Shown: in pieces, positions 10,931 through 31,400 of the stretch
Numbering within the stretch: position 1 is the stretch's first letter
Layout: every line of letters begins with the position of its first letter
Assembly: GCF_000730165.1 (NCBI RefSeq)
Contig: NZ_CP022113.1
Location: forward strand, 620,001 to 684,000
Source: Nitrospirillum viridazoti CBAmc
Lineage (GTDB): Bacteria > Pseudomonadota > Alphaproteobacteria > Azospirillales > Azospirillaceae
Direction: 5' to 3'
DNA: 64,000 bases
Made by a program: the position numbers and the translations under genes
The notes under the pieces: model-generated
The model's input: only the letters and a program-made list of their open reading frames with translations
Databases searched by the model: none
What the model was told of the DNA's origin: nothing

Positions 10931-10969
10931 GGCCACGGAAAACGGCCACGAAAATCGGCCACGAAAATC
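10931..10969 (+). repeat. Three tandem 13-bp repeats in the GH39 leader
   Basis: GGCCACGGAAAAC (10931-10943) is followed by two identical copies of GGCCACGAAAATC (10944-10956, 10957-10969). The block ends 11 bases before the GTG start, directly before the GGGAGGAA ribosome-binding site. Since 13 is not a multiple of three, it is unlikely to be coding. Confidence 0.7.
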
Positions 10970-10980
10970 GGGAGGAACGG

Positions 10981-12778: not shown

Positions 12779-15469
12779 ATGCGTTATCGCCCCCTGACAC
12801 GCGCGCTGCTGCTCGGCGCCGCCTTCTTCGCCGCCAGCACCCAGGTGCGCGCGGACCAGCCTACCTCTCCCGCCGTCGGCGAGGCATGGCAAAAGGCGCA
12901 AAGCCTGGTCGCCCGCATGACACTGGATGAGAAGCTGGGCCAGCTGGTCAACGTGGCGCCCGCCATCCCCCGGCTGGACATCCCCGCCTACAACTGGTGG
13001 ACGGAATCGCTGCACGGCGCCATCGGCGCCGTCCCCACCACCAACTTCCCCGAGCCCATCGGCCTGGCCGCCACCTTCGACGCGCCCCTGGTGCACGACG
13101 TGGCCGGGACCGTCAGCGTGGAGGTGCGCGCCCTGCACACGCTGGGCCGCGCCACCGGCCACCTGGGCCGCATCGGCACCGGGCTGGACACCTGGTCGCC
13201 CAACATCAACATCTACCGCGACCCGCGCTGGGGCCGCGGCCAGGAGACCTATGGCGAGGACCCCTATCTGACGGCGCGCCTGGCGGTAGCCTTCGTCGGC
13301 GGCATGCAGGGGCCTAACCCCGACCTGCCGGACGTGGTGGCCACACCCAAGCATTTCGCCGTGCACAGCGGCCCGGAATCGACCCGCCATGCCGCCAACG
13401 TCTACGTTTCGCCGCACGACCTGGAGGATACCTACCTGCCCGCCTTCCGCGCCGCCATCGTGGAGGCGCGCGCCGGGTCCATCATGTGCGCCTACAACCG
13501 CATCGACGGGCAGCCGGCCTGCGCCAGCGACCTTCTGCTGAAGGACCATCTGCGCGGTGCGTGGCACTTCACCGGCTATGTCGTGTCGGACTGCGACGCC
13601 GTGAAGGACATCGCCGACAATCACAAGTACGCGCCCGACCAGGCCGCCGCGGTGGCCGCCGCCCTGAAGGCCGGGGTGGACAACGAGTGCAACGTCGCCA
13701 CGCTGTTCGGCGGGGGCGGCGGGCTGGCGGCGCGCTACAAGGAGGCGTATACGCGCGGCCTGATCGGTGCGGCGGACATCGACCTGGCGCTGGTGCGCCT
13801 GTTCTCCGCCCGCTACCGCAACGGCGACCTGCCCGGCCTGGACCGTCCCAAGCAGGACGTGCCCGTCCAGGCCATCGGCACGGCGGAGCACCAGCAGCTG
13901 GCGCGCAAGGTGGCCGGTGAAAGCATGGTGCTGCTGAAGAATGACGGCGTGCTGCCGCTGAAGCCCGGCGTCAAGGTGGCGGTGATCGGCCCGCATGGCG
14001 ATTCCACCCGCGTGCTGCGCGGCAACTATTCCTCCGCCCTGTCGGCCCCGCCCGTGTCGGTGCTGGACGGCTTGCGCCAGGTGATGCCGGGCGCCCGTAT
14101 CACCCACGTCCCCTTCAACGAGACCGTCATGGACGGTGACCCGGTGCCCACGTCCGCCCTGGTGACGCCGGACGGCAAGCCGGGCGTGCGGGCGCAATAT
14201 TTCAACGCCAGCGGTCCGGTGAAGGCCCCGGCGCCGGACGCGCCCTTCGGCTCCATGCCGCCGCTGGAGGTGACGTCCAAGCCCGTGCTGACGCGGGTCG
14301 AGGCTGGCGTGGGCGGCAGCGGCCATGACCAGAAGACGGTGGCAGAGAATTACCGCGTGGTCTGGACGGGCTTCCTGGTGCCGCCCGAATCCGGCACCTA
14401 TCGCCTGGGCATGACCGGCTTCTCCGGCGGAGAGTTCGAGTTCGACGGCCGCCGCGTGGACCTGGGCACGCCGCTGTGGGGTGACCTGCCCAAACTGGAA
14501 ACCGTGACCCTGGAAAAGGGCAAGCGCTATCCCATCCGCGTCGCCACCGACGTGCACACCATGGGCGGGGTGGAATTCCTGTGGAAGCGGGTGGCACCCG
14601 CCGCCGCCGCCCCCACCGCTGACGGCGACCTGGCCGCGGCCGTGGCCGACGCCGACGTCATCGTCGCCGCCGTGGGCCTGAGCGCCGACCTGGAGGGCGA
14701 GGAGATGAAGCGCCAGATCGAGGGCTTCGCCGGCGGCGACAAGACCTCCCTCGACCTGCCGTCGGAGCAGCGCCGCCTGTTGCAGGCGGCCAAGGCCACG
14801 GGCAAGCCGGTGGTGGTGGTCCTGCTGAACGGCAGCCCGCTGGACCTGTCCTGGGCCAAGGACAACGCCGCCGCCATCGTGGAGGCCTGGTACCCCGGCC
14901 AGGCGGGGGGCCTGGCTGTCGCCGACGTGCTGTCGGGCAAGACCAACCCGGCCGGCCGCTTGCCGTTGACCTTCTACCGCAGCGTGGCCGACCTGCCGCC
15001 CTTCGACGATTACGCCATGACGGGCCGCACCTATCGCTACTTCACCGGCCAGGCCGTCTACCCCTTCGGCTACGGCCTGTCCTACACCCGCTTCGACTAC
15101 GGCCCCGTGACCATGGAGCCGACGCACGGCGGCGCCGAGAACGGCGTGCGCGTGACGGCCACGGTGACCAACACCGGCGATCGCGCGGGCGACGAGGTGG
15201 CGCAGCTGTACCTGAAGCCGCCCGCGTTCGAGGGGGCGCCCCGCCTGGCGCTGCGCGGCTTCCAGCGCCTGTCCCTGGCGCCGGGTGAAAGCCGCACGGT
15301 ATCGTTCGAGCTGTCGCCCCGCGACCTCAGCTTCGTCACCCGCGACGGTGACCGCCAGGTCATGGCCGGCACCTACCAGGTCAGCGTCGGTTCCGGCCAG
15401 CCGGACAGCGGCGTGCCCGTCAAGCAGGGGCAGTTCGCCACCACGGCGGCGCTGTCCATCGAGCGGTAA
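12779..15469 (+). CDS. Secreted GH3 beta-xylosidase/beta-glucosidase with PA14 insert
   Basis: An 896-residue protein with a signal peptide (RALLLGAAFFAASTQVRA). The GH3 N-domain has NWWTESLHG, KHFAVHSGPE and the nucleophile region GYVVSDCDAV (D271). A PA14 domain is inserted at about 460-605 (VRAQYFN...YRVVWTGFL..P.SGTYRLGM), within the GH3 C-domain, and a fibronectin-III-like domain closes the protein (about 795-885). NWWTESLHG and SDCDAV resemble the xylan 1,4-beta-xylosidase branch of GH3 more than cellobiases. The ATG at 12779 follows GGAAGGAAAG. It is 58 bases behind GH39 and is likely co-transcribed; it converges on the GntR gene. Confidence 0.88.
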   Translation: MRYRPLTRALLLGAAFFAASTQVRADQPTSPAVGEAWQKAQSLVARMTLDEKLGQLVNVAPAIPRLDIPAYNWWTESLHGAIGAVPTTNFPEPIGLAATFDAPLVHDVAGTVSVEVRALHTLGRATGHLGRIGTGLDTWSPNINIYRDPRWGRGQETYGEDPYLTARLAVAFVGGMQGPNPDLPDVVATPKHFAVHSGPESTRHAANVYVSPHDLEDTYLPAFRAAIVEARAGSIMCAYNRIDGQPACASDLLLKDHLRGAWHFTGYVVSDCDAVKDIADNHKYAPDQAAAVAAALKAGVDNECNVATLFGGGGGLAARYKEAYTRGLIGAADIDLALVRLFSARYRNGDLPGLDRPKQDVPVQAIGTAEHQQLARKVAGESMVLLKNDGVLPLKPGVKVAVIGPHGDSTRVLRGNYSSALSAPPVSVLDGLRQVMPGARITHVPFNETVMDGDPVPTSALVTPDGKPGVRAQYFNASGPVKAPAPDAPFGSMPPLEVTSKPVLTRVEAGVGGSGHDQKTVAENYRVVWTGFLVPPESGTYRLGMTGFSGGEFEFDGRRVDLGTPLWGDLPKLETVTLEKGKRYPIRVATDVHTMGGVEFLWKRVAPAAAAPTADGDLAAAVADADVIVAAVGLSADLEGEEMKRQIEGFAGGDKTSLDLPSEQRRLLQAAKATGKPVVVVLLNGSPLDLSWAKDNAAAIVEAWYPGQAGGLAVADVLSGKTNPAGRLPLTFYRSVADLPPFDDYAMTGRTYRYFTGQAVYPFGYGLSYTRFDYGPVTMEPTHGGAENGVRVTATVTNTGDRAGDEVAQLYLKPPAFEGAPRLALRGFQRLSLAPGESRTVSFELSPRDLSFVTRDGDRQVMAGTYQVSVGSGQPDSGVPVKQGQFATTAALSIER

Positions 15470-15484: not shown

Positions 15485-15532
15485 CGGCCCAGTCTACGCC
15501 TTTGCCAGGCTATGCCTTGAAAGACTGGGCCG
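15485..15532. terminator. Long-loop inverted repeat between GH3 and gntR
   Basis: CGGCCCAGTCT (15485-15495) is the exact complement of AGACTGGGCCG (15522-15532). The right arm lies in the 3' end of the GntR gene. It sits between convergent genes and may act as a transcription barrier in both directions. Confidence 0.4.
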
Positions 15533-16247
15533 TGTCGCGCAGCGCCTCGGTGATCAGCAGGCGCATGGCGTCGCGCGCCGCCTCGGCATCGCGGGCGGCG
15601 ACGGCGTTCAGGACGTAGCGGTGCAGGGGGATGGGGTCGCGCAGCACCACCCCCTCGCGCAGCTTGTGGATGGTGCTCCACCGCACCGCCGCCCCGATGC
15701 TGACGGCCAGCGACCCGATGAGCGGATTGCCGCTGGCCTCCAGCAGGGTGTCGTGGAAGTCGGCGTCGGCGGCCTGCCCCGCCTCCGCCGCCAGGGTGTG
15801 GCGATCCATGATGTCCAGCGCCGCCGTCATGCGGGCCAGCTGTTCCTCGGTGCGCCGCTCCGCCGCCAGGGCGGCGATGCCCGGTTCCACGATCATGCGC
15901 AGTTCGAACAGGCTGTAGATGAAGTCCTTGCTGGGTTCGGCCGCGAAATGCCAGGCCAGGACGTCGGGATCCAGCAGGTTCCAGCGCGACCGGGCGCAGA
16001 CCTGGGTGCCGCTTTTGGGCCGGCTCTCCACCAGCCCCTTGGCCGCCAGGATGCGCAACGCCTCGCGATAGGCGGAGCGGGAGACCTTCAGCCGCTCGGC
16101 GTTAACGATCTCATTCTCCAGGACATCGCCCGGCTGGTAACGGCCGGTGACGATGTCGGTGCCCAGCTTTCGGGCCAGGGAGCCGTGCAGCCGACCCATC
16201 GGGGAACCCCGGCCCAGACGGGTAAGCCCGGCGATCAATTCATCCAT
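15510..16247 (-). CDS. GntR-family transcriptional regulator (FadR/FCD subfamily)
   Basis: About 245 residues. The N-terminal winged helix has LARKLGTDIVTGRYQPGDVLENE and LKVSRSAYREALRILAAKGLVESRPKSGTQV; the C-terminal FCD ligand domain has LFELRMIVEPGIAALAA, DADFHDTLLEASGNPL and later conserved His residues that bind a metal in this subfamily. FCD regulators commonly answer sugar acids (galactonate, gluconate, uronates). I took ATG 16247 (MDELIAG) as start; an ATG at 16271 is an alternative, as neither has a strong ribosome-binding site. It lies downstream of a small tautomerase gene on the same strand, inside the sugar locus, so it may control sugar or sugar-acid genes here or elsewhere. 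Confidence 0.85.
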   Translation of the reverse strand: MDELIAGLTRLGRGSPMGRLHGSLARKLGTDIVTGRYQPGDVLENEIVNAERLKVSRSAYREALRILAAKGLVESRPKSGTQVCARSRWNLLDPDVLAWHFAAEPSKDFIYSLFELRMIVEPGIAALAAERRTEEQLARMTAALDIMDRHTLAAEAGQAADADFHDTLLEASGNPLIGSLAVSIGAAVRWSTIHKLREGVVLRDPIPLHRYVLNAVAARDAEAARDAMRLLITEALRDTAQSFKA

Positions 16248-16354
16248 ACGACAATCCGCCGGCGCTGACATCCATAGGTGGCCCGTCCCGGGGCCGCCGC
16301 CCCACCGTTGTAACATTCCGGGCGGCAACGGCACCAGCTATCGGCCGCACCCCC

Positions 16355-17281: not shown

Positions 17282-20203
17282 ATGGTGAGTTTCCAAAGAA
17301 AAAAGGGAGTGTCCAAGTCACCGACGGCGAATTTCCGTACGGCCGTTCTGGCCGGTGTTTCGCTGGTCACCATCGCAGGTCTGGCAACGCCGGCATTCGC
17401 GCAAACGACTCAGCCCAACCCGGACAAGGGCGGCACCAATTCCGATACGATGGAAGATATCATCGTCACCGGCATTATCGGATCTCTGCAACGTAACCTT
17501 GATATCAAGCGCGAGGCGGATGGCATCGTCGACGCCATTTCGGCCGAGGACATCGGTAAGTTCCCCGATTCCAACGTCGCAGCCTCGATGCAGCGCATTC
17601 CCGGCGTGTCCATCAGCCGCGGCACCAGCAGCATGGGCGGCGTGCCCACCTCCACCGGTGACGCCACCGCCATCACCGTCCGCGGCTTTGGCCCCAGCTT
17701 CAACGAAACATTGTTCGACGGCCGCGTGTCCGCCTCGGCCGCCAGTTCCGGCCGCGGCTTCGACTTCAGCTCCGTCAGCTCCGACTTCATCGGGCAGATC
17801 GACGTCCTGAAGTCGCCGGACGCATCGCTGTCGGCCGGCGCCATCGGCGCCACCGTCAACATCAAGTTCCCCAAGCCGCTGGAACATTCGGGATTCCGGG
17901 CCGCCGGCTCGGTTTCCGGCTCCTACGCCTCCGACGCGGATGGGGCCTCCCCCAACGGCGCCATCCTGGTCAGCGACACCTTCGCCCACGACACCTTCGG
18001 CATCCTGCTGGCCGCCGGCTTCAACGAGACCCAGACCCTGGGCAACCATGTGAACAGCCAGGGCTGGATCGGCACCACCAGCGACAAGTTCGGCAGCCTG
18101 GCATCCGGCACGCCGTCCGGCGTTCCGGCCTGGTTCATCCAGGACTACGGCCTGTACCAGGAACACAGCGACACCATCCGCAAGTCCGGCCGCCTGGCCC
18201 TGCAGTGGCAGCCGTCCGACCAGATCGAAATCACGCTGAACGACGACTTCCAGCGTGAGGACGCCCACCAGAACCAGTACGGCTACAGCATCTGGTTCAA
18301 CTCGGGTGCCCTGCAGAACGTGAAGCTGAACAGCAACGGGTCGGTGGTCGATTTCGTCCAGCCCAACACGCCGACCGACTTCCAGGCCCAGTACAACAGC
18401 CAGGTGCTGGAAAACAACCTGTACGGCCTGAACATCAAGTGGACGCCGACCAACAACTGGAAGATCACGGTCGACGCCGCCCGCTCGGAATCCTGGCAAA
18501 ACCCCGACGGCCAGCTGACCAGCCTGGACGCCGACGTGGGCTACGGTTCCTGCGCCAGCGGCACCTGCATCAACACCAACAATGTGGGCATCACCGGCGT
18601 CGCGGCCGGTGCCCTGCCCTACCCCACTGTCTACGGGCCGAACGGCGACACGTCGCACTTCACCAACGGCTTCATCGGGTCGCACGTCTTCCCGATGAGT
18701 TCGACCCGCAACTACAACGTCATCGATCAGGGCAAGGCCGAGGCTGAATGGAAGAGTGGCGACACCACCATTCGCTTCGGCATGCAGTACATCGATAACA
18801 AGGAAGATCTGGCCAGCTACGACAGCTTCACCAACAGCGATTGGCAGGCGTACAGCGGCTATGGTCCGGCGTCGGGCTCGCCCACGGGCGTGGCGTTGCC
18901 GCAGGACTGGTTCACCAAGACCTTCAGCACGTCCAACTTCATCCCGGGCTTCGCCAACAACGGCAACCTGCCGCCGCAGATCCTAATGGCCAATCCGGGC
19001 CAGATCTTGAACTACCTGCAGGGCCTGGGCAATCCGCAGACCAAGAACATCCCGGGCTTCAACTACGGCTGCTGCACCCCGCCCTTCGACGGCACCTATC
19101 GCCTGATCCTGTCCCCGGGCTCCAAGCGCAATATCGAGGAAGAGACCTACGCGCCTTATATCTCGACCACGTTCAAGACCCAGGTGGCCAATATGCCGCT
19201 GAAGGTCAACCTGGGCGTTCGCGAGGAAATCACCCACGTCATCTCCTCTGGCCTGGGCCAGACGCCGACCGCCTTCACCGTGACGCCGGGCGACAAGACC
19301 GCGTTCACGGTGGCCTACGGTCCGGTCAGCACGGTCGAGGGCACCAACAATTACCAGTACATGCTGCCCAACCTGGACTTGACCTTGGGCGTCACGGACG
19401 ACTTGCAGGTGCGCTTCAACGCGTCGCGCACCCTGACCCGTCCGCCGCTGAACAACATGACCCCGGTCTACAGCATCACCACGCAGCGCGTCGGCACGGT
19501 GTCGGCCTCGGGTGGCAACCCCAACCTGATGCCCTACCTGTCCGATAACCTGGATATCGGTGCCGAGTACTACTATCAGCGCAACTCCTACGTCGCCCTC
19601 GATGGTTTCATGAAGAGCGTCAGCAACTTCGTGATCGGCGGCACATCGCAGAAGACCTTCGCCGGCGTCATCGACCCGACCACCGGCAAGGACATGCAGT
19701 ACAGCTACAGCACCTACGTCAACGGACCGACGGCCGAGGTTTACGGCCTGGAAATGTCCATCCAGCATGTGTTCGATGACACCGGCTTCGGCTTCCAGGC
19801 GAACGCCACCGTCGTCGGCACCAACAAGCCCTACGATCCGCTGAACCTGGCGGTTAGCAACTTCGCCGTCACGGGCCTCGCCAACTCCGCCAACTTCGTC
19901 GGCTTCTACGACAAGTACGGGTTCCAGGCGCGTATCGCCGTCAACTGGCGCGATGAGTACCTGGACCACTTCGGCCAGGCGCAGGGCGGTTCCATCTACG
20001 GGTCCGAACCGACCTTCGTCGATCCGGCCTGGGAAGTGGACTTCAGCACCAGCTACGACATCAATGAGTATGTGAGCGTCTACTTCGAAGCCTTGAACCT
20101 GACCAATGAGACCTATTCGACTCATGGCCGGTACCAGGAACAGTTGCTGGATGCCGTCGCCTACGGGCAGCGGTACACCATCGGCGCGCACTTCAAGTAC
20201 TAA
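17282..20203 (+). CDS. TonB-dependent outer-membrane receptor
   Basis: A 973-residue protein with signal peptide (TAVLAGVSLVTIAGLATPAFAQ). A TonB-box-like stretch EDIIVTGI is followed by the plug domain (DAISAEDIGKFPDSNVAASMQRIPGVSISR, then ITVRGFGPSFNETLFDGR) and a long beta-barrel that ends in a terminal Tyr (..HFKY), the usual outer-membrane insertion signal. The plug wording IGKFPD.N.A..LQRIPGV is typical of the large alphaproteobacterial/xanthomonad carbohydrate receptors. ATG 17282 follows AGGGAGGGAAAAT. Context (arabinoxylan enzymes upstream, halogenase/SapC/cupin genes downstream) suggests uptake of xylo- or arabino-oligosaccharides. LacI-type operators precede it and a strong terminator follows. 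Confidence 0.9.
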   Translation: MVSFQRKKGVSKSPTANFRTAVLAGVSLVTIAGLATPAFAQTTQPNPDKGGTNSDTMEDIIVTGIIGSLQRNLDIKREADGIVDAISAEDIGKFPDSNVAASMQRIPGVSISRGTSSMGGVPTSTGDATAITVRGFGPSFNETLFDGRVSASAASSGRGFDFSSVSSDFIGQIDVLKSPDASLSAGAIGATVNIKFPKPLEHSGFRAAGSVSGSYASDADGASPNGAILVSDTFAHDTFGILLAAGFNETQTLGNHVNSQGWIGTTSDKFGSLASGTPSGVPAWFIQDYGLYQEHSDTIRKSGRLALQWQPSDQIEITLNDDFQREDAHQNQYGYSIWFNSGALQNVKLNSNGSVVDFVQPNTPTDFQAQYNSQVLENNLYGLNIKWTPTNNWKITVDAARSESWQNPDGQLTSLDADVGYGSCASGTCINTNNVGITGVAAGALPYPTVYGPNGDTSHFTNGFIGSHVFPMSSTRNYNVIDQGKAEAEWKSGDTTIRFGMQYIDNKEDLASYDSFTNSDWQAYSGYGPASGSPTGVALPQDWFTKTFSTSNFIPGFANNGNLPPQILMANPGQILNYLQGLGNPQTKNIPGFNYGCCTPPFDGTYRLILSPGSKRNIEEETYAPYISTTFKTQVANMPLKVNLGVREEITHVISSGLGQTPTAFTVTPGDKTAFTVAYGPVSTVEGTNNYQYMLPNLDLTLGVTDDLQVRFNASRTLTRPPLNNMTPVYSITTQRVGTVSASGGNPNLMPYLSDNLDIGAEYYYQRNSYVALDGFMKSVSNFVIGGTSQKTFAGVIDPTTGKDMQYSYSTYVNGPTAEVYGLEMSIQHVFDDTGFGFQANATVVGTNKPYDPLNLAVSNFAVTGLANSANFVGFYDKYGFQARIAVNWRDEYLDHFGQAQGGSIYGSEPTFVDPAWEVDFSTSYDINEYVSVYFEALNLTNETYSTHGRYQEQLLDAVAYGQRYTIGAHFKY

Positions 20204-20239
20204 GGTTTGTTTGTGAGCGTACCTTCCTCCTAAACTCCT

Positions 20240-20273
20240 GGGGGCCGCCGTGGCACGTGGCGGCCCCCTTTTT
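20240..20273 (+). terminator. Rho-independent terminator after the TonB receptor
   Basis: A perfect 10-bp GC stem (20240-20249 with 20259-20268) with a nine-base loop is followed at once by TTTTT. It lies 36 bases after the receptor stop and before the halogenase gene, so expression of the following genes depends on read-through or a separate promoter. Confidence 0.9.
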
Positions 20274-20377
20274 CCCTCTGAAGGAGCGGGAGAAAGGCCT
20301 TAAACTGGACCGATACCGGATGCCGCACGTCCCCGCCAGGGAGGGGGGCCGGCGTCTCCGAAAACCAGGATGCCTTC

Positions 20378-21913
20378 ATGGATCGTCCCATCCAGCATAT
20401 CGTCATCGTCGGCGGCGGTACCGCCGGCTGGCTGACCGCGGGCGTCATCGCCGCCCGGCACAAGGCGCGCATGGCCTCGGGCTTCAAGGTCACCTTGGTG
20501 GAATCCCCCAACGTCGCCATCATCGGCGTGGGCGAGGGCACCTGGCCCACCATGCGCACCACGCTGGAAAAGATGGGCGTCTCGGAGACGGAGTTCTTCC
20601 GCCATTGCGACACCGCCTTCAAGCAGGGCGGCAAGTTCGTGGGCTGGACCACCGGCGCCCCCGATGATGCCTATTACCACCCGCTGATGCTGCCGCACGG
20701 CTGGTCCCAGGTGAACCTGGTGCCCCATTGGCTGCAGGACGCGCGCGGCCGCACCTTTTCCGCCGCCGTCTGCCCGCAGGAGGCCATCTGCGAGGAAGGC
20801 CTGGCGCCCAAGACCATCGCCACCCCCGAATACCGGGGCCTGGCCAACTATGCCTATCACCTGGACGCCGGCAAGTTCGCCAGCTTCATGCAGAAGCACT
20901 GCACGCAAAAGCTGGGCGTCCACCATGTCCTGGCCGACGTCACCCAAGTGAAGCAGGATGAAAGCGGCGACATCGCCAGCCTGGTGACCGAGCAGGCGGG
21001 TGAGATCACGGGCGACATGTTCGTGGACTGCACCGGTTTTCGCGCCCTGCTCATCGAAAAAACCTTGGGCGTGGGCTTCAAGGACTGCCGCGACGTGCTG
21101 TTCTGCGACACGGCGCTGGCCATCCAGGTTCCGCACGAGAGCGAAGACGCCCCCATGGCGTCGCAGACCATCGCCACCGCGCAATCGTCCGGCTGGATCT
21201 GGGATATCGCCCTGCCCACCCGGCGCGGCCTGGGCTACGTCTATTCCAGCGACCATATCGATGAGGAGGCGGCGCGGGTCGAGCTGGCGCGCTACGCCGG
21301 CACCCAGGCCGAGGCGCGCAAGATTCCCATCCGTTCCGGCCATCGCGAGATGTTCTGGAAAAACAACTGCGTGGCCGTGGGCCTGGCGGCGGGCTTCCTG
21401 GAGCCGCTGGAAGCCTCCGCCATCATGCTGATCGAGCTGTCGGCCAAGATCATCGCCGACCAGCTGCCGGCCCGCCGCAGCGTCATGGATGTGGTCGCCC
21501 GCCGCTTCAACGAAGTGACGCACTACCGCTGGGGCCGCATCATCGATTTCCTGAAGCTGCACTATGTCCTGACCCAGCGGACGGACACGGCGTTCTGGCG
21601 CGACAACGTCGATCCCGCCTCGACACCGGAACGGCTGCAGGATCTGCTGCGCCTGTGGAAATACCGCGCGCCCTGGTTCCTGGATGAGTTCGACCGGCTG
21701 GAGGAAGTGTTCCCCGCCGCCAGCTACCAGTATGTGCTGTATGGCATGGGCTTCCGCACCGAGGTGGACCCCGCCGAAAACAGTGCCGACGCCCTCCTGG
21801 CCAGCCGCATCATGGCAGAGAACGCGGCCATGGCCCAGAAGATGAGGGCGAACCTGCCCAAGAACCGCGACCTGGTGCGCAAGATCCGCGACCACGGCAT
21901 GCAATCGATCTGA
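20378..21913 (+). CDS. Tryptophan-halogenase-like flavoprotein 1
   Basis: A 511-residue protein of the flavin-dependent tryptophan halogenase family. The FAD dinucleotide motif is HIVIVGGGTAGW; the second motif WIWDIALP corresponds to WxWxIP of halogenases; K82 in TAFKQGGKF aligns with the catalytic Lys of PrnA/RebH, and the active-site Glu lies in AAGFLEPLEAS. The residues needed to make and transfer hypohalous acid thus appear present, but members found beside TonB receptors have no established substrate. No flavin reductase lies in the window. It starts a run with SapC (15-base gap) and a cupin protein, 174 bases after the receptor. Confidence 0.85.
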   Translation: MDRPIQHIVIVGGGTAGWLTAGVIAARHKARMASGFKVTLVESPNVAIIGVGEGTWPTMRTTLEKMGVSETEFFRHCDTAFKQGGKFVGWTTGAPDDAYYHPLMLPHGWSQVNLVPHWLQDARGRTFSAAVCPQEAICEEGLAPKTIATPEYRGLANYAYHLDAGKFASFMQKHCTQKLGVHHVLADVTQVKQDESGDIASLVTEQAGEITGDMFVDCTGFRALLIEKTLGVGFKDCRDVLFCDTALAIQVPHESEDAPMASQTIATAQSSGWIWDIALPTRRGLGYVYSSDHIDEEAARVELARYAGTQAEARKIPIRSGHREMFWKNNCVAVGLAAGFLEPLEASAIMLIELSAKIIADQLPARRSVMDVVARRFNEVTHYRWGRIIDFLKLHYVLTQRTDTAFWRDNVDPASTPERLQDLLRLWKYRAPWFLDEFDRLEEVFPAASYQYVLYGMGFRTEVDPAENSADALLASRIMAENAAMAQKMRANLPKNRDLVRKIRDHGMQSI

Positions 21914-21928
21914 GCCCGGATGGGACCC

Positions 21929-22636
21929 ATGACCAACATCGCCATCGTCAACGCCCAAGCCCACCGCGACCTGCAGGTGAAGGCCAAGGCCAGCCCCGCC
22001 TTCGACGCCAAGCATTTCGTCGCCGTCATCGTGGCCGAGTTCCCCCTGCTGGCCGTGCAGTGCCCCATCCTGCTGTCCAAGGACGCGGAAACCGGCGCCT
22101 TCGTCTGTGGCGCCGTGCTGGGCTTCGCCCAGAATGAAAACCTGTTCCTGACGCCGGACGGCTGGCAGGGCTACCGCCCGCTGACCCTGCAGCGCGGCCC
22201 CTTCTACACGGTGGGGGAGGATCTGGCCATCGACCTGGACGACGCCCGGGTGGGCACCGATGTCGGCGAGCCGCTGTTCTCGCCGAACGGGGAGATGACC
22301 CCCTATCTGCGGGGCATCATCAACGCCATGCAGGAATTGCGTCCGGGGCTGGAGCGTACCAAGCGTTTCATCGAAACGCTGATGAACCTGAAGCTGATCG
22401 AGCCCATCGATATCAGCCTCAGCTTCGACGACGGCAGCCGGCATGAGCTGGCCAACCTGTACACCATCGACCGCGAGGCCCTGCGCGCCCTGCCGGATGC
22501 CGCGGTGCTCGACCTGTTCCGCCGCGGCTACATGCAGCTGATCTACCTGATGATCGCGTCGCTGAAGCACGTACCCCTGATGGCGGAGCGCAAGAACAAG
22601 CAGCTGAGCACCGGCCCGGCCCCGGCCTGGGGCTGA
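21929..22636 (+). CDS. SapC-like protein
   Basis: About 235 residues with the SapC pattern (PF07277): AFDAKHFVAVIVAEFPLLAVQCPILLSKD, NLFLTPDGWQGYRPLTLQRGPF and LFSPNGEMTPYL. SapC was first named in the Campylobacter S-layer locus, but in alphaproteobacteria and xanthomonads it is repeatedly found between a TonB receptor and tryptophan-halogenase-like genes; its function is unknown. No signal peptide is seen. The start ATG 21929 is preferred since GGATGGGA precedes it; ATG 21920 is in frame. The gap to the halogenase gene is 15 bases and to the cupin gene 13, so all three are one operon. Confidence 0.85.
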   Translation: MTNIAIVNAQAHRDLQVKAKASPAFDAKHFVAVIVAEFPLLAVQCPILLSKDAETGAFVCGAVLGFAQNENLFLTPDGWQGYRPLTLQRGPFYTVGEDLAIDLDDARVGTDVGEPLFSPNGEMTPYLRGIINAMQELRPGLERTKRFIETLMNLKLIEPIDISLSFDDGSRHELANLYTIDREALRALPDAAVLDLFRRGYMQLIYLMIASLKHVPLMAERKNKQLSTGPAPAWG

Positions 22637-22649
22637 CGGCGGCGCCCCC

Positions 22650-23657
22650 ATGACGACCGAAGTCGCCGAACGCGACGGCCGCACCCTCACCTCGCCGGGG
22701 CAGTTCCTGGGCGAGGTGGTGATGGCGGGCCGCCCCCTGATCCTGCGCGGCCTGGTGGCGCACTGGCCGGTGGTGGCGAAGGTCACGCCCGCCGCCCTGC
22801 GCGACTATCTCGGCGGCTTCGGACCCGGCGCCGCCATGGAGACCTTCGTCGGCCCACCGGAGATCCGGGGCCGGTATTTCTATGGCGCGGACCTCAAGGG
22901 CAACAATTTCGAGCGCCGCACCCTGCGCCTGGGTGAGGCGCTGGACCAGATGGTGCGGGCCCTGGATGACCCCGCCTCCCCCACCCTCTATGCCGGGTCG
23001 CTGACCTTGGACGAGCATCTGCCGGGCTTCGCGGCGGAGAACCCCATGCCCCTGCTGCCACCCGGCGTGGCGGGGCGCATCTGGCTGGGCCACGCCTCCA
23101 CCGTCGCCACCCATTACGACGCGTTCGAGAACCTGGCCTGCGTGGTGGCCGGCAAACGGCGCTTCACCCTGTACCCACCGGCGGCCGTGGGCGACCTTTA
23201 TGTCGGCCCCATCGACAACACCCTGTCGGGCCAGCCCATCAGCCTGGCCGCGTCCGATCCTGACAACCCCGCCTATCCACGCTTCCACGCCATCCGCGAT
23301 CAGGCGCTGGTGGCGGATCTCGAGCCCGGCGACGCCCTGTTTCTACCCAAGCTGTGGTGGCACCAGGTGGAGGCGACCGCCCCGTTCAACGGCCTGGTCA
23401 ACTACTGGTGGGACGCCTTCGCCACCGGCCCGGACGCCCCCTTCACCAGCCTGCTTCTGGCCATGATCACGATGGCGGAGCGGCCGGAGGCGGAGCGGCA
23501 GGCCTGGCGCGCCTTCTTCGACCATTACGTCTTCCGCCTGCAGGGCCATCCCCTGGCCCACCTGCCGGCGGAGCAGCACGGCGTGCTGGGTCCCCTGAAG
23601 GCAGGCAATTACGGCCGCATCCGCGCGCGGGTGATGCAGCTGCTGCGCGGGGGATAG
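22650..23657 (+). CDS. Cupin_8/JmjC-like Fe(II)/2-oxoglutarate oxygenase
   Basis: A 335-residue protein with the cupin_8 (PF13621) pattern: RPLILRGLVAHWP at the N-terminus, the iron-binding HxD in STVATHYDAFEN (H155, D157), a Lys in AGKRRFTLYPP that usually binds 2-oxoglutarate, and the distal His in LPKLWWHQVEA (H238). Relatives include asparaginyl hydroxylases such as FIH and bacterial JmjC proteins, so a protein-hydroxylating role is possible but unproven. It is the third gene of the halogenase/SapC/cupin operon. It faces the second halogenase-like gene, with 68 bases between the stop codons, which hold only a partial direct repeat CCCATCATG. Confidence 0.82.
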   Translation: MTTEVAERDGRTLTSPGQFLGEVVMAGRPLILRGLVAHWPVVAKVTPAALRDYLGGFGPGAAMETFVGPPEIRGRYFYGADLKGNNFERRTLRLGEALDQMVRALDDPASPTLYAGSLTLDEHLPGFAAENPMPLLPPGVAGRIWLGHASTVATHYDAFENLACVVAGKRRFTLYPPAAVGDLYVGPIDNTLSGQPISLAASDPDNPAYPRFHAIRDQALVADLEPGDALFLPKLWWHQVEATAPFNGLVNYWWDAFATGPDAPFTSLLLAMITMAERPEAERQAWRAFFDHYVFRLQGHPLAHLPAEQHGVLGPLKAGNYGRIRARVMQLLRGG

Positions 23658-23725
23658 CCCTTATTCGCCTCGGTCGCCGGACGGTCCCCGCCGGCGCCGA
23701 TCAATACCCATCATGTCAATGCCCA

Positions 23726-25276
23726 TCATGATTGGGCGGCGCAGTACCGGTCGATGAAGGCCTGATGATGGGGCATGGTCTGGACCACCCAGCCGATCAC
23801 GTCGTGGATGTTGGCCAGGGCGCCGCGCATCTTCTCCGGATCCAGCAGGTCGGTCAGCGGGTCATAGCGGCGCGGGACCAGGCCCTGGCCGGTGAAGACG
23901 TAAAGCCAGCTTTGCTCAGGAAACAGCTCGGTATCCTCGCGCTGGATACGGCCATGGCTCTGGAACAGCTCGATCTTGGACTTCAGGCTGTCCGGCCACT
24001 CGATGCCGGCGCAATGGCGCCAGAAGTCCGTATCCCGCCGTTCGTTAGTGGCGTAGTGCAGCACCAGGAAGTCGCGGATGCGCTCATACTCGAACGCCAC
24101 CATCCTGTTGTAGCGGGCTACGTCCGCGGGCTCGCACCGCCGGTCGGGCAGCATCTGGATGAACAGGGCCAGGCCCCGGTGCACCATGTGGATGCTGGTG
24201 GACTCCAGGGGTTCGAGAAAGCCGCTGGCCAGGCCCAGGGACAGGCAGTTGCGCTTCCAGGTTTCACGGCGGCGGCCGGTGACGAAGCGCAGGATGCGGG
24301 GGTCGGCCAGGGGCTTGCCCGCCAGGTTGGCCAGCAGGGTCTCCCGCGCCGCCTCATCGTCCAGGAAGTCGCGGGCGTAGACCACGCCGTTGCCTTCACG
24401 GTGCTGCAGCGGGATGCGCCATTGCCAGCCGGCTTCCCGCGCCGCCGCCAGCGTGTAGGAGGGCGGCGCGCCCGCCCGCTCGCTGGGCACGGCGACGGCA
24501 CTGTCGCACGGCAGGTAGCTTTGCCAGTTCTCATAGCCGGCCTGCAGCGCCTCCTCGATCAGCAGGCCACGGAAGCCGCTGCAGTCGATGAAGAAATCGC
24601 CTTCGACCCGGCGGCCATCCTCCAGCCTCAGGGCGTCGATGAAGCCGTCCTCGGGCCGCAGGTCGACCTTCACCACCTTGCCCTCCACCCGGGTGACGCC
24701 CCGCGCCTCGGAGTAGGTGCGCAGATATCGGGCGAACAGGGCGGCATCGAAATGCAGGGCGTAGGTGATGCCCTCCAGCGGCGATCCCGGCGCCTTCACC
24801 GGGCGCATGAAGCGATTGTGCGCGGCCGCCTGGGCCTGCAGCGAATATTCCTCCAGCGGGGCGGCGGCACCGGCCAGCCGCTGCCGCATCCAGTAGGCGG
24901 GGAAGCCTATCCCCTCCATCTCGAAGCCGGTGTGGCCGAAGGGATGGAAATAGGAATGGCCCAGGCGGGTCCAGTCCTGGAAGCGGATGCCCAGCTTGAA
25001 GGTGGCGTTGGTCTGGCGGATGAGGTCGTCCTCATCGATGCCCAGCACGCGGATGAAGTTCATGATGGGCGGGATGGTGGCCTCACCCACGCCCACGGTG
25101 CCGATCTGCTCGGATTCCACCAGCACGATGTCGCACTTCAGGTTGCGCAGGAACCTGGTCAGGCTGGCGGCCGCCATCCATCCGGCGGTGCCACCGCCGA
25201 CGATGACGATGCGGCGCAAGGGCGCGTTGGTAGCGGTATCATTCGAAATCTGCGGCGAAGTATGCGGCGCGGCCAT
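23726..25276 (-). CDS. Tryptophan-halogenase-like flavoprotein 2
   Basis: A 516-residue member of the same family as the gene at 20378 but clearly divergent. It has RRIVIVGGGTAGWM, the classical WQWRIPL (WxWxIP) motif, K94 in ATFKLGIRFQDW as the catalytic Lys counterpart, and Glu in ASGFLEPLEST. All marks of an active halogenase are kept, and it fits the family more closely than copy 1. Ribosome binding before ATG 25276 is weak (GGGACCC), so the start could lie a few codons downstream. It converges with the cupin operon and is divergent from the metal-efflux locus. Whether it acts on free tryptophan, another aromatic, or a protein/glycan is unknown. Confidence 0.87.
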   Translation of the reverse strand: MAAPHTSPQISNDTATNAPLRRIVIVGGGTAGWMAAASLTRFLRNLKCDIVLVESEQIGTVGVGEATIPPIMNFIRVLGIDEDDLIRQTNATFKLGIRFQDWTRLGHSYFHPFGHTGFEMEGIGFPAYWMRQRLAGAAAPLEEYSLQAQAAAHNRFMRPVKAPGSPLEGITYALHFDAALFARYLRTYSEARGVTRVEGKVVKVDLRPEDGFIDALRLEDGRRVEGDFFIDCSGFRGLLIEEALQAGYENWQSYLPCDSAVAVPSERAGAPPSYTLAAAREAGWQWRIPLQHREGNGVVYARDFLDDEAARETLLANLAGKPLADPRILRFVTGRRRETWKRNCLSLGLASGFLEPLESTSIHMVHRGLALFIQMLPDRRCEPADVARYNRMVAFEYERIRDFLVLHYATNERRDTDFWRHCAGIEWPDSLKSKIELFQSHGRIQREDTELFPEQSWLYVFTGQGLVPRRYDPLTDLLDPEKMRGALANIHDVIGWVVQTMPHHQAFIDRYCAAQS

Positions 25277-25826: not shown

Positions 25827-27068
25827 ATGCGCATCCCGATCCTCGGGCTGGCCACGGCGCTTGCCGTTGGCCTGGCCATTCCCATATGGCCCGCCTGGGC
25901 CTCACCCCCCAGCGACACCTCCCTCACCACCCTGATCGCCCAGGCGCTGGCCACAAATCCGCGCCTGAAGGCCGCCGAGGCCCGCGCGGCAGCCGCCCAG
26001 GGCGACGTAATGCAGGCAGGTGTGCTGCCCAATCCGCAGGTCTCGCTGCAAACGGAGAACCTGGCCGGGTCCGGCCCCTATCGCGGCACCCGCGCCATGG
26101 AAACGACCATAGGCCTGAATCAGCTGGTGGAGCTGGGCGGCAAGCGCGGCAGCCGCCAGGCGGTGGCCACGGCGGCCGGGAACCGTGCCCGCCTGGACGC
26201 CGACATCGTGCGCCTGGACCTGGTCCGTGACGTGCGCGTGGCCCATGCCGCCCTGTTGGCCGCCACCGCCCGCCGTGCCATCGTCGAGGAACAGCGCGGC
26301 CTGGCGGCGGAAACCGCCCGCGCGGTCGCGGCCCGGGTACGATCCGGCCACGACAGCGCCATCCAGGAGGATCGCGCCGCCACCGATCTGCGCCAGGCGG
26401 AGATCGGTGCGGCCCGCGCCGTGCGTGACGAGACCGCCGCGCGCCGCAGCCTGGAACTGCTGGTGGGCTGCCCGGTGCCGCCGCTGGATCCGGCCGCCCT
26501 GAGCGACTTGGGCGCCGCCCTGCCCGTCGCCGCCGGCGGGAACACCCCCGACGTGGCCCGCTGGCGGGCGGAGGTGGGGCGCACCCGCGCCGCCATCGCC
26601 GTGGAGCGGGCGCGGGCCGTGCCCGACGTGACCGTGGGTGCCGGTGTGCGCCGCTTCAACGACGGGCGCGACACCGCCCTGGTGCTGGGCGTCACCATCC
26701 CCATCCCGGCCTTCGACACCAACCGGGGCGGCATCCATCGCGCCTATCAGGAGAGCACCGAGGCGGAGATGGAATTGGACCGCGCCACCCGCGACCAGGA
26801 CACCGCCCTGGCCATCGCCCGCGATCGCGTAGCGGTGGCCCGGACCGAGGCCGAGACACTGGCCGGACAGGTCGTCCCCGGGGCGGAACAGGCCGCCGCC
26901 GCGACCCGTGAAGGCTACCGCCAGGGCAAATTCCCCTACCTGGATGTGCTGGACGCCCAGCGTACCCTGCTGGCCACCCGCCTGACCCTGGTCGCCGCCT
27001 ATCAGGACTATCACCAGAGCCGTGCCGACCTGGACCGGCTGACCGGCGCCGAGGAGGCCCAGCCATGA
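25827..27068 (+). CDS. czcC: CzcC-like outer-membrane efflux protein
   Basis: A 413-residue TolC-family protein with a signal peptide (LATALAVGLAIPIWPAWA). Two outer-membrane efflux repeats are seen: ALATNPRLKAAEARAAAAQGDVMQAGVLPNP with NQLVELGGKRGSR in the first half, and VGRTRAAIAVERARAVPDVTVGAGVRRF with PAFDTNRGGIHRA in the second. The wording 'ELGGKR' and 'PIPAFDTNRG' is typical of the CzcC/CusC metal branch. It forms the outer-membrane channel of the tripartite pump. The stop overlaps the start of czcB by 4 bases (ATGA at 27065-27068). Confidence 0.9.
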   Translation: MRIPILGLATALAVGLAIPIWPAWASPPSDTSLTTLIAQALATNPRLKAAEARAAAAQGDVMQAGVLPNPQVSLQTENLAGSGPYRGTRAMETTIGLNQLVELGGKRGSRQAVATAAGNRARLDADIVRLDLVRDVRVAHAALLAATARRAIVEEQRGLAAETARAVAARVRSGHDSAIQEDRAATDLRQAEIGAARAVRDETAARRSLELLVGCPVPPLDPAALSDLGAALPVAAGGNTPDVARWRAEVGRTRAAIAVERARAVPDVTVGAGVRRFNDGRDTALVLGVTIPIPAFDTNRGGIHRAYQESTEAEMELDRATRDQDTALAIARDRVAVARTEAETLAGQVVPGAEQAAAATREGYRQGKFPYLDVLDAQRTLLATRLTLVAAYQDYHQSRADLDRLTGAEEAQP

Positions 27069-28237
27069 CCCGCATCTCCATGCAGACCCTGTCGCGCCTG
27101 GGTGCCGGTGCGCTGGCCCTGGGCGGGCTGGCCGTCTGGATCGCCACCGGCGAGGCGCCCAAAGGCCAAGAGCCCGCCGCCCATGAGGCGCATGATGACG
27201 GACTGGTGCGCCTGACAGCGGAGCAAGCCAAAGCCGCCGGCATCACCACCGCCATTGCCGGCCCCGGCCGCCTGATCCGCCAAGTGCGCGTCACCGCCAC
27301 GGTGACGGCCGACCAGGACCACATCGTCCATATCGCCCCCCGCATCGCCGGTGTGGTGGCGGAGGCGCGCAAGAAGCTGGGCGACGCCGTCGCGGCCGGC
27401 GAAGTGCTGGCCCTGATCGACAGCACGGAGGTCGCGGACGCCCGCGCCGAGTACCTGGCGGCACGGGAAAACGAGGAGCTGGCCCGCACCACGGCGGCGC
27501 GGGAGGAAGCGCTGTGGCGCCAGCGCATCTCGCCCGAGCGGGATTACCTCCAGGCCAAGGCGGCGGCGGCGGAAGCCGGCATCCGCACCGGCCGTGCCCG
27601 CCACAGCCTGCAAGCCTTGGGGCTGGATGAAACCAGCGTGAGGTCCAAGAGTGCCAATCTGCAGCGGCTGGACCTGCGCAGCCCCATCGCCGGGCACGTC
27701 ATCGCCCGGGGCGCCACCCGAGGCGACCGCCTGGCGGCCGACGCCGACGCCTATGTCGTGGCCGACTTGGCCAGCCTGTCCCTGACCTTCCCCGTCTATG
27801 CCCGCGACCTGCCCTTCGTGGCAGTGGGCAAGGAACTGGGTGTCAGCGGCGCGGACGGCCGCACGGCCACCGCCCGCGTCACCCATGTCGGTCCCGTGCT
27901 GGATCCAGCCACCGGCGCCGCCCCCGTGGTGGCGACCCTGGAAAACCCGGACGGATCCTGGCGGCCCGGCGATTTCGCCACCGGCACGCTGGCGGCGGAC
28001 GCGCAGGAGGCCGCCCTGCTGGTGCCGGAGGGCGCGGTGGTGACGCTGGAGGGCCGGACCCAGGTGTTCGTGCCCGTCCCCGGCGGCTATGAGCGGCGCC
28101 CTGTCACCCTGGGCCGGGGCGATGGCACCCGCGTGGAAGTGCTGGCCGGCCTTAAGCCCGGCGACAGCGTCGCCGCCGGCAACGCCTTCATCCTGAAGGC
28201 GGAGGCAGGAAAGGGCGACGCTGGCCATGATGACTAA
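27065..28237 (+). CDS. czcB: CzcB-like periplasmic adaptor of RND metal efflux
   Basis: A 390-residue membrane-fusion protein. An N-terminal signal/anchor (GALALGGLAVWIATG) is followed by VRLTAEQAKAAGI, the lipoyl-type halves (HIAPRIAGVVAEARKKLGDAVAAGEVLALIDS and LDLRSPIAGHVIARGATRGD), a helical hairpin between them (about 120-190), and a beta-barrel region (VGPVLDPATGAAPVVATLENPDGSWRPGDFATG). The wording matches the CzcB/heavy-metal adaptor group. A few N-terminal His residues (HEAHDDG) could bind metal. It bridges CzcC and CzcA. A 170-base gap with two palindromes separates it from czcA, which is unusual for this operon. Confidence 0.9.
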   Translation: MTRISMQTLSRLGAGALALGGLAVWIATGEAPKGQEPAAHEAHDDGLVRLTAEQAKAAGITTAIAGPGRLIRQVRVTATVTADQDHIVHIAPRIAGVVAEARKKLGDAVAAGEVLALIDSTEVADARAEYLAARENEELARTTAAREEALWRQRISPERDYLQAKAAAAEAGIRTGRARHSLQALGLDETSVRSKSANLQRLDLRSPIAGHVIARGATRGDRLAADADAYVVADLASLSLTFPVYARDLPFVAVGKELGVSGADGRTATARVTHVGPVLDPATGAAPVVATLENPDGSWRPGDFATGTLAADAQEAALLVPEGAVVTLEGRTQVFVPVPGGYERRPVTLGRGDGTRVEVLAGLKPGDSVAAGNAFILKAEAGKGDAGHDD

Positions 28238-28252
28238 GCCCGGCGGCGTACA

Positions 28253-28282
28253 TGCCGCTGTAGGACGCGACTGCGTCCGCCG
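28253..28282. repeat. REP-like palindromic element, copy 2
   Basis: It differs from 16748-16777 at a single position and has the perfect hairpin core GGACGC-GACT-GCGTCC. It lies in the czcB-czcA gap and may stabilise the upstream mRNA or damp read-through. Confidence 0.6.
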
Positions 28283-28328
28283 CAGCATTCCGGGAAACGC
28301 AGTGGATTGGAATGCGAGGAAAGCCAAG

Positions 28329-28344
28329 TCGCCGGATGGCGACG
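28329..28344. repeat. Second palindrome in the czcB-czcA gap
   Basis: GTCGCC-GGAT-GGCGAC is a perfect 6-bp stem with a four-base loop, the same stem and loop sizes as the REP core 50 bases upstream. Two such hairpins between genes resemble a REP doublet. Confidence 0.45.
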
Positions 28345-28407
28345 CCCGGCGCCTGAGGGGGCGGCTGACCGGCCACGGTCGGACGCCGCACGTATAAAGG
28401 ATTATCC

Positions 28408-31400
28408 ATGCTTGAACGCATCCTCACCCTGTCCGTGCGCCACCGCTGGATGGTGGTGGCGCTGGCCCTGCTGGCGATGGCCGTGGGCGGCTGGACGGCC
28501 CTGCGCTTGCCCATCGACGCCGTGCCCGACATCACCAACAAGCAGGTGCAGATCAACACCACCGCTCCGGCCCTGTCGCCGGTGGAGGTGGAGAAGCAGG
28601 TGACCTTCCCCATCGAGACGGCGCTGGCCGGCATCCCGGGGTTGGAGGGCACCCGCTCGCTGTCGCGCAACGGCTTCTCCCAGGTCACCGCCCTGTTCGC
28701 CGAGAACGTGGACATCTACTTCGCCCGCCAGCAAGTCGGGGAACGCCTGGGTGAGGCCAAGGCGGCCCTGCCCGAGGGGGCGGAACCCCATATGGGGGCG
28801 CTGTCCACGGGCCTGGGCGAGGTCGCCATGTGGACCGTGTCCCTGACCCCCTTTGATTCCGCCAAGCTCAAGCCGGGCGCCGCCGGCTGGCAGGCCGACG
28901 GCAGCTATCGCACGCCAGAGGGCCAGGTGCTGGCCACGGAGGCGCAACGGGCGACCTACCTGCGCACCGTGCAGGACTGGATCATCCGGCCGCAGGTGAA
29001 GGGCGTGCCCGGCATCGCCGGGGTGGACGCCATCGGTGGGTACGTGAAGCAGTACCAGGTGGCGCCCGATCCGCAGCGGCTGGCCGCCCGGGGCCTGACC
29101 CTGACGGATGTCGCACAGGCGCTGGAGCGCAACAACACCAGCGCCGGCGCGGGCTATCTGGAACGGCGGGGGGAGGCCTACGTGGTGCGGGCCGATGGCC
29201 GCCTGCGCGATACGGAGGACATCGCCGCCGTGCCCATCGCGACCCGTGACGGAACCCCCGTCCTGCTGCGCGATGTGGCCGCCGTGACCCTGGGCCATGA
29301 ACTGCGCAGCGGCAGCGCCAGCGAGAACGGGCGGGAGGTGGTGGTGGGCACCGCCCTGATGCGGGTGGGGGGCAACAGCCGCACGGCGGCCGCGGCCGTG
29401 ACGGCCAAACTGGCCGACGTCGCCCGCACCCTGCCCCCCGACATCAAGGCGGAAGTGGTGCTGAACCGCACCAAGCTGGTGGATGCCACCATCCACACCG
29501 TGGGCAAGAACCTGGCGGAGGGCGCCCTGCTGGTGATCGTGGTGCTGTTCGCCCTGCTGGGTAATATCCGCGCCGCCTTGATCACCGCCGCCATCATCCC
29601 CGTGACCATGCTGCTGACGGCCATGGGCATGGTGGAGGCCGGCATCAGCGCCAACCTGATGAGCCTGGGCGCGCTGGACTTCGGCCTGATCGTCGACGGC
29701 GCCGTCATCATCGCGGAGAATTGCCTGCGCCGCCTGGGCCACCGCCAGCAGGCCCTGGGCCGCCCCCTGGCGACACCGGAGCGGCTGGCGGAGGTGGTGG
29801 CCGCCTCGAAGGAGATGATACGCCCGTCCGTCTACGGCCAGGCCATCATCATCCTGGTCTATGTGCCGCTGCTGACCTTCACCGGGGTGGAGGGCAAGAT
29901 GTTCCAGCCCATGGCCCTGACGGTCATCACCGCCCTCGTGGCCGCCTTCGTCCTGTCCCTGACCCTGGTGCCGGCGCTGGTCGCCCTGGTCATCACGGGG
30001 CCGGTCAATGAGAAGGAGAACCGCGTGGTGGCGGGGGCCAAGGGCTGGTACGCGCCCGTCCTGGAAAGAGCATTGGCCGCGCCCTTGCCCTGGATCTTCG
30101 GTGCCGCCTGCCTGTTCCTGGTCAGCGTGGGCCTGTTCACCCGCATGGGGCAGGAATTCATCCCCACGCTGGATGAGCAGGACATCGCGGTGCAGGCGGT
30201 GCGCATCCCCAGCACCTCACTGTCCCAATCCACCGCCATGCAGAGGGACGTAGAGCGGGCGGTCAGCGCGATGCCGGAGGTGGCCTTCGTCTTCTCCAAG
30301 ACCGGCACGGCGGAGATGGCGGCCGATCCTATGCCGCCCAACGCGTCGGACACCTTCATCATCCTGAAGCCGCGCCCGCAATGGCCCGACCCGGCCTTGC
30401 CCAAGGCCGCACTGGTGGCCCGCATCGAGGCGGCGCTTGGCCACTTGCCCGGCAACGCCTATGAGTTCACCCAGCCCATCCAGATGCGCTTCAACGAGCT
30501 GATCTCCGGCGTGCGCAGCGATGTGGCGGTGAAACTGTATGGCGACGACTTCGAGGCCCTGCAGGCCTCGGCCAACCGCATCGCCGGCGTGCTGCAGGGC
30601 ATCGCCGGCGCGGCCGACGTGCGGGTGGACCAGGCGGCGGGCCTGCCCACCCTGGACATCCGCGTTGATCGCCAGACCGCAGCCCGCTTCGGCCTCAGTG
30701 CCCAGGACGTGCAGGACGTCGTGGCCATGGCCGTGGGCGGGCGGGCCGCTGGGCAGGTCTTCGAGGGTGACCGCCGCTTCGACGTCACCGTGCGGTTGGC
30801 CGACCCCTTGCGCAACGACCTGGACACTTTGCGCGCCCTGCCGGTGCCCTTGCCCGACCAGGGCAAGGGGGGCCCGCGCTTCGTACCGCTGGGCTCCGTC
30901 GCCAGCTTTACCTTGGCGGAAGGACCCAACCAGATCGGGCGGGAGGACGGCAAGCGGCGCATCGTCATCCAGGCCAATGTGCGCGGCCGGGATATCGGGT
31001 CCTTCGTGGCGGAGGCGCAGGCGCGGCTGACCACGGTGTCCCTGCCGCCCGGCTACTGGGTGACGTGGGGCGGGCAGTTCGAGAATCTGGCGGCGGCGCG
31101 CGACCGGCTGGCGGTGGTGGTGCCGGCCTGCTTCGCCGCCATCTTCCTGCTGCTATACGGCGCCCTGGGCTCGGCCCGCGATGCCGGGCTGGTGTTCAGC
31201 GGCGTGCCGCTGGCCCTGACCGGCGGCATCGCGGCCCTGTGGCTGCGCGGCATGCCCTTCTCCATCTCCGCCGCCGTGGGCTTCATCGCCCTGTCCGGCA
31301 TCGCCGTGCTGAACGGCCTGGTCATGGTGTCCTTCATCCGCCAGGCCATCGCCGAGGGCGACGATCCCCTGACTGCCATCCGCAACGGGGCGCTGACCCG

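Follow-up and report, generated by a model that had tools for sequence, protein, structure and literature searches.

A TonB-dependent receptor clade that travels with a flavin-dependent halogenase and SapC: a candidate receptor-maturation module in carbohydrate-uptake loci

Introduction

Flavin-dependent halogenases (FDHs) are recognised by a WxWxIP motif, and among their solved members BrvH (6frl) and Xcc4156 (6y1w) stand closest to one of the two enzymes considered here. Both act on indole. Their native substrates are not known, and a peptide substrate has been proposed because of their open active site, as a passage of PMC7336383 relates. The same source, in the part consulted, gives a Trp within a peptide as the substrate of MibH (5uao), a peptide tryptophan halogenase. 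The BrvH gene adjoins a second FDH gene, according to part of PMC5945002, and this arrangement is shared with the locus described below. In contrast to that locus, the passages on BrvH and Xcc4156 contain no TonB receptor or SapC, and the term 'tonb' has 0 occurrences in the portion of PMC5945002 at hand.

Polysaccharide utilisation loci and CUT loci bring together a TonB receptor, glycoside hydrolases and a regulator. The loci of the present module share this composition and differ from it by an added FDH-SapC set, with or without a cupin. They can be described as carbohydrate-uptake loci in which a halogenase-SapC set looks obligate. In the available portion of PMC1790865, the terms 'halogenase', 'SapC' and 'cupin' do not occur at all, nor do 'halogenase' and 'SapC' in that of PMC5943477. 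No description of a receptor-halogenase-SapC module was found in the open-licence literature searched, and the linkage may be familiar to specialists through gene-neighbourhood databases.

The locus and its surroundings

The window is the whole stretch of 64,000 nucleotides of the Nitrospirillum viridazoti CBAmc genome that was analysed. Open reading frames (ORFs) and profile matches place all five module genes at the positions given in an earlier note on this DNA (Table 1). The receptor frame is open from a TTG at 17204. An alternative SapC start is the ATG at 21929, with which the 15-base gap between FDH1 and SapC reported in that note is reproduced.

Table 1. Predicted genes of the module and its upstream neighbourhood in the window
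Feature	Position	Strand	Basis or remark
Esterase	7512-8624	-	upstream glycan-degrading neighbour
Alpha-L-arabinofuranosidase-type protein	8621-10867	-	upstream glycan-degrading neighbour
GH39	10903-12720	+	upstream glycan-degrading neighbour
GH3	12779-15469	+	upstream glycan-degrading neighbour
GntR/FCD-type regulator	15510-16334	-	upstream of receptor
TonB-dependent receptor, TIGR01782 (TonB-Xanth-Caul) subfamily	17282-20203	+	572 bits, cut-off 310; signal-like N-terminal stretch
FDH1, flavin-dependent halogenase, WxWD type	20378-21913	+	PF04820, 411 bits, cut-off 21
SapC family protein	21920-22636	+	PF07277, 188 bits, curated cut-off 28.9
Cupin_8/JmjC-like protein	22650-23657	+	PF13621, 205 bits; HxD...H
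FDH2, BrvH/Xcc4156-like flavin-dependent halogenase	23726-25276	-	PF04820, 632 bits, cut-off 21

The predicted gene content fits a locus of the arabinoxylan type in this Nitrospirillum genome, because an esterase, an alpha-L-arabinofuranosidase-type protein, GH39, GH3 and a GntR/FCD regulator lie upstream. The genome as a whole (7.38 Mb, four contigs) holds five SapC, eight PF04820 and one cupin_8 gene, together with 17 TIGR01782 receptors above the cut-off. No flavin reductase was matched among the window ORFs scanned by profile. On inspection, the starts of FDH1, SapC and the cupin carry no signal peptide, and that of the receptor is signal-like; in FDH1 there is no space for a signal peptide ahead of the FAD motif.

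Directly beyond FDH2 lies an RND metal-efflux set (25827-31629; TolC-like, HlyD-like and CusA/CzcA-type, the last at 1488 bits), which is unrelated to the module. It is followed by genes for Ku and DNA ligase D, a bacterial end-joining pair (31704-35777).

Recurrence of the module

Named genomes, scanned with an alignment of FDH1 relatives, gave at least 594 pattern matches, among them 564 relatives, of which the best 80 were kept; none of the 80 loci is named Xanthomonas. Because these are the top FDH1 matches, they are uninformative on remote halogenases. At 69 of them, the flanks extend at least 6 kb to each side of the anchor. Within this full-flank set, drawn from the best 80 of the 564 relatives listed, a receptor lies within 500 bp of the FDH1 relative at 67 of 69 loci, SapC within 5 kb at 68, a cupin within 6 kb at 51 and an additional FDH within 5 kb at six. 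Receptor and SapC occur together under these limits at 67/69 loci and all four partners at 50/69 (again the best 80 of the 564 listed). The two exceptions are L073, in which FDH2 separates the receptor from FDH1, and L121, where no partner was found.

The four families were also scanned for their order at 81 loci, namely the best 80 of the 564 relatives listed and the window. The commonest layout is divergent, with cupin and SapC facing away from receptor and FDH1 (cupin<SapC< >receptor>FDH1; 43/81). Co-directional receptor>FDH1>SapC follows (15/81), then the arrangement of the window, receptor>FDH1>SapC>cupin<FDH2 (6/81, window included), and receptor>FDH1>SapC>cupin (5/81); the remaining 12 loci have rarer or incomplete layouts. 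The second, facing halogenase, pointed out previously in the window alone, is therefore a recurrent part of one sub-type. Median gaps over the 81 loci are 71 bp between receptor and FDH1, 20 bp between FDH1 and SapC, 6 bp between SapC and cupin, and 258 bp in the divergent interval. FDH1, SapC and cupin are present in 7/7 of the window and six same-genus loci (L024-L030). No natural fusion of the four families was seen among the ORFs scanned.

Chance expectation was assessed in nine genomes: that of the window and eight reached via eight of the best 80 loci, which were thus picked for holding a module. These contain 145 receptors, 76 FDHs and 34 SapC genes; two split matches that had been rejoined are counted, as is one receptor entry that scored under the cut-off. 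Of the 76 FDHs, 63 have a TIGR01782 receptor no more than 5 kb away, versus about 4.7% expected, and SapC within 5 kb of an FDH in 21 of 34, versus about 2.2% expected. SapC is likewise within 5 kb of a receptor in 21/34 cases, and 48/145 receptors have an FDH at that distance. When one SapC-FDH pair per genome is removed, 12 of the 25 remaining SapC genes are still near an FDH. The absence of co-occurrence beyond chance, named in the earlier note as the outcome that would speak against a module, was not observed, and the co-occurrence of receptor, FDH1 and SapC is not due to chance. The recurrent module around a carbohydrate receptor that the note proposed is real, and it spans alpha- and gammaproteobacteria.

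Pairwise distances over 82 loci correlate at r 0.77 (receptor-FDH1), 0.85 (receptor-SapC) and 0.78 (FDH1-SapC), with partial correlations of 0.33, 0.63 and 0.36, respectively; they are not taken as proof, because there is no species control. In another genus of the same family (L031, L032, L033, L034, L035, L037), FDH1-like genes that are 55-58% identical lie beside SapC, and the flanks of 1.5 kb showed no cupin.

Halogenases FDH1 and FDH2

FDH1 and FDH2 are predicted flavin-dependent halogenases on the strength of full-length PF04820 matches. The earlier assignment of a catalytic Lys (K82 in FDH1, K94 in FDH2) and a Glu to both proteins holds: FDH1 has Lys82 and Glu345, and FDH2 has Lys94 and the counterpart Glu. 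The catalytic role of these residues is presumed here from PrnA. The WxWxIP-type motif, also ascribed to both, is present in FDH2 (GWQWRIP), whereas FDH1 (GWIWDIA) keeps both Trp residues but not the end of the motif. This WxWD form is found in 110 of the 163 FDH sequences compared, a few of which are one gene in two loci. Every sequence of the WxWD type retains both Lys and Glu (110/110). In the other 53, Lys is kept in 49 and Glu in 51; the four rows that lost Lys represent two genes, each in two loci, and two of these rows lack Glu too.

Two FDH-like genes in tandem FDH arrays (L222:56-1477 and L207:2-1468, both on the + strand) have Lys changed to Ser and to Arg, and in L222 Glu is changed to His. 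Judged from these substitutions, they are possibly non-catalytic partners of active halogenases. In another genome (G082:C2:606556-615964), a TIGR01782 receptor is followed by four consecutive PF04820 genes, one of them a divergent copy.

The solved chains closest to FDH1 are 2pyx (E 2.2e-165), 9ltb and 9lu2, deposited as 'tryptophan halogenase' structures. No function paper for these three was found by entry code, and 2pyx is named in the part of PMC7336383 consulted. FDH1 belongs to the same superfamily as MibH (E 4.3e-58), which scores more distant from FDH1 than the free-substrate tryptophan halogenases do. As a possible difference from MibH, no precursor peptide was seen in the module, judging by the gaps between receptor, FDH1, SapC and cupin (medians 71, 20 and 6 bp). 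For FDH2, the closest chains are BrvH (E 2.8e-157), Xcc4156 (1.4e-153) and 9luq. FDH2 groups at 100% support with the FDHs of L066, L069, L073 and L082, all of which occur in the same module.

SapC and the cupin

The predicted model of SapC is confident (pLDDT 95.9, pTM 0.89). SapC has no sequence match in the PDB (best E 0.68), and a Foldseek comparison gave no fold match at the E 0.001 threshold, the best being 0.33; the modelled SapC fold is without a solved counterpart. Several of the weak fold matches (TFIIE, AbfR2, replication terminator) look like winged-helix proteins and were judged to be noise.

SapC also occurs in other settings. In the window genome, one copy follows HlyD-type genes, one of which has a Peptidase_M50 match (L017:6330-10633); another follows a 3149-aa open frame (L016:9543-10277) whose last 1649 aa have no Pfam match; and a third lies 1.7 kb past a TonB receptor (L015:9915-10649).

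The HxD...H motif noted earlier in the cupin is confirmed as H155, D157 and H238, each present in 88/88 module cupins (rows not thinned). JMJD7, JMJD5 and FIH are protein hydroxylases, and they are the closest solved relatives of the cupin, which shares their HxD...H; the similarity is weak (E 1e-16 to 1e-9).

The receptor clade and Trp338

The receptor model (pLDDT 86) matches TonB-dependent receptors in the PDB by fold. In a FastTree tree of 138 receptor sequences thinned to 107, one clade with 100% local support gathers 68 of the 70 rows with FDH and SapC plus two FDH-only rows, and contains no row lacking both partners. Its members come from Sphingomonadaceae, Caulobacter, Nitrospirillum, Rhizomicrobium, Alteromonadaceae, Cellvibrionaceae, Pseudoalteromonas and others. 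A second receptor group, outside the clade, is linked only with FDHs of the FDH2 kind. The receptor type is uncommon in its class, being found at E 1e-100 in 2/142 genomes (the window genome and G228), and therefore provides no further halogenase-free receptor control.

Trp338 is the sole aromatic residue among the 24 invariant columns of the 68-row receptor alignment. In the model, it ends strand 315-338 and is followed by a 26-residue stretch that leads to strand 365-387; the joins at 313-314 and 388-392, by contrast, are short. Because the long stretch lies beside Trp338 and the joins are short, the model would place this residue on the outer side of the barrel. Trp338 (frequency 1.0) and Phe339 (0.99) form a conserved pair within columns 324-365, where the top residue averages 0.51.

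Every module receptor has Trp338 (69/69; 68 clade members and L197, which lies outside the clade), as do 2/2 FDH-only rows within the clade, 1/9 FDH-only rows outside it and 8/26 receptors that have neither FDH nor SapC. A second receptor beside one module (L123:16114-19710) lacks it and was set aside from these counts. L177 and L202, whose FDHs lie 2.1 and 1.4 kb away, fall outside the module clade and both lack Trp338. Given its presence in 8/26 receptors without partners and in only 1/9 FDH-only rows outside the clade, Trp338 tracks the module clade, not halogenases as such, and it is not unique to the clade. Further clade-typical residues are Phe136, Phe339, Glu649 and Arg950; Phe136, Phe339 and Arg950 are as clade-typical as Trp338, and Phe136 occurs in 0/37 rows outside the clade. 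Stacking on sugars may be all that the invariant Trp338 is for.

No receptor column tracks the cupin (37 alpha-type and 4 gamma-type cupin-positive rows versus 4 and 15 negative). In a comparison of six FDH2-positive receptors with sisters L065, L067 and L103, only Ile106 is linked to FDH2 and no aromatic residue tracks it cleanly, column 573 being aromatic in 5/6 and in one sister. Module receptors show no enrichment in Trp (mean 12.5 versus 14.3, the comparison rows including L177 and L202).

Glycan context

The module occurs in loci for several glycans. One annotated plasmid locus has a xylanase, GH43 and GH115, and another has GH43, GH95, GH9 and GH3. In Catenovulum, receptor, FDH1 and SapC lie without a cupin beside an agarase and a beta-galactosidase, and in Pseudoalteromonas beside alpha- and beta-galactosidases, again without a cupin. 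Pfam tallies of neighbouring ORFs point the same way: among alpha-type neighbours (74 ORFs of 11 loci; top 25 of 50 families), GH3, GH43, GH95 and arabinofuranosidase occur, and GH16 (Glyco_hydro_16) accounts for 3 of 77 gamma-type ORFs (12 loci; top 25 of 99 families).

The earlier proposal that ferulate on arabinoxylan could be the substrate agrees with the neighbours in the window, but it is weakened because the same receptor, FDH1 and SapC also stand in agarase and galactosidase loci. As xylan, agar and galactoside loci have the module in common, its constant part is the receptor, and this favours the receptor over ferulate as the target.

A tentative model of receptor maturation

Receptor, FDH1 and SapC are co-inherited over two bacterial classes and several glycan specificities. 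The residues of predicted catalytic type are intact in FDH1 and in the cupin. This linkage to one receptor clade suggests that the module enzymes finish the receptor chemically, and we infer from it, tentatively, that the set may be a receptor-maturation module acting in the cytoplasm before export. Such a role is favoured because the receptor is the only common non-enzyme besides SapC, because the enzymes look cytoplasmic and because the receptor crosses the cytoplasm unfolded.

In this model, the enzymes would act on the unfolded receptor chain ahead of Sec export, with SapC binding or presenting the chain. FDH1 would halogenate a single aromatic residue of the receptor, with Trp338 as the likeliest site, in a loop that would contact the glycan. 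In loci that have them, the cupin would hydroxylate a receptor residue and FDH2 would halogenate a further receptor site. The modification could then tune or protect the glycan-contacting surface of the receptor, whichever glycan is taken up. A more specific version, in which SapC-guided halogenation of Trp338 or a neighbouring aromatic residue before export is the native job of many orphan flavin halogenases, and cupin and FDH2 extend it in the sub-type of the window, is a bolder conjecture and unlikely.

The clade has kept halogenase and SapC despite class-wide divergence, change of glycan and rearrangement. It makes directly testable the question of what BrvH-like and many other flavin halogenases, whose native substrates are not known, act on. 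If receptor modification is true, a halogenated transport protein would add a new layer to carbohydrate uptake, and SapC, a family for which no solved fold counterpart was found here, would have a job.

Alternative explanations

FDH1 might instead halogenate a small diffusible molecule, such as indole or a tryptophan derivative, the receptor linkage reflecting nothing but shared regulation by glycans. BrvH brominates free indole in vitro, as stated in the consulted part of PMC5945002, and free-substrate enzymes exist in the FDH family. Co-inheritance with a single clade across classes is, however, tighter than shared regulation needs, and the module layouts, scanned for four families, show no additional recurring biosynthetic gene. 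This alternative seems improbable.

The association might also be passive, an old operon moving as a block while FDH1 and SapC act on a different target at the cell surface. SapC does occur elsewhere, for example beside HlyD-type genes, and in the nine genomes 13/34 SapC genes have neither an FDH nor a TIGR01782 receptor within 5 kb; kinship among rows also makes the clade statistics look tight. Against a mere block, the layout is divergent in 43/81 loci (best 80 and window) and co-directional in most others, and because of these two different layouts the set must have been retained through rearrangement. We regard passive association as unlikely.

The imported cargo could be the target: FDH1 and the cupin would then modify an aromatic moiety, ferulate or something lignin-like, brought in with the oligosaccharide. 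The window has arabinoxylan-type enzymes and an esterase, and a putative esterase (PF00756) accounts for 4 of the 74 neighbouring ORFs of 11 alpha-type loci. Yet a cupin-free set serves the agar and galactoside loci, GH16 is among the gamma-type neighbours, and to our knowledge these glycans are not feruloylated. Nor is there an evident use in halogenating a food molecule, which leaves this explanation distinctly unlikely.

A role of the FDH-like proteins in hydroxylating or oxidising a Trp residue, in the manner of the QhpG and LodB maturases and in place of halogenation, is very doubtful: the QhpG model (NF049967) is matched by 17/19 FDH sequences at E <=1e-5, the LodB model by one of the 19 and the GoxB model by FDH2, but all these matches fall far under the curated cut-offs (for QhpG, 33.6 and 30.5 bits against 240), the full-length PF04820 matches are much stronger (411 and 632 bits), and the halogenase Lys and Glu are retained.

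A separate observation concerns a Sphingomonas parapaucimobilis plasmid (L059:10457-17119), where an FDH-SapC pair is followed, at a distance of 3 kb, by an annotated chloride channel, which might supply halide or might be there by chance.
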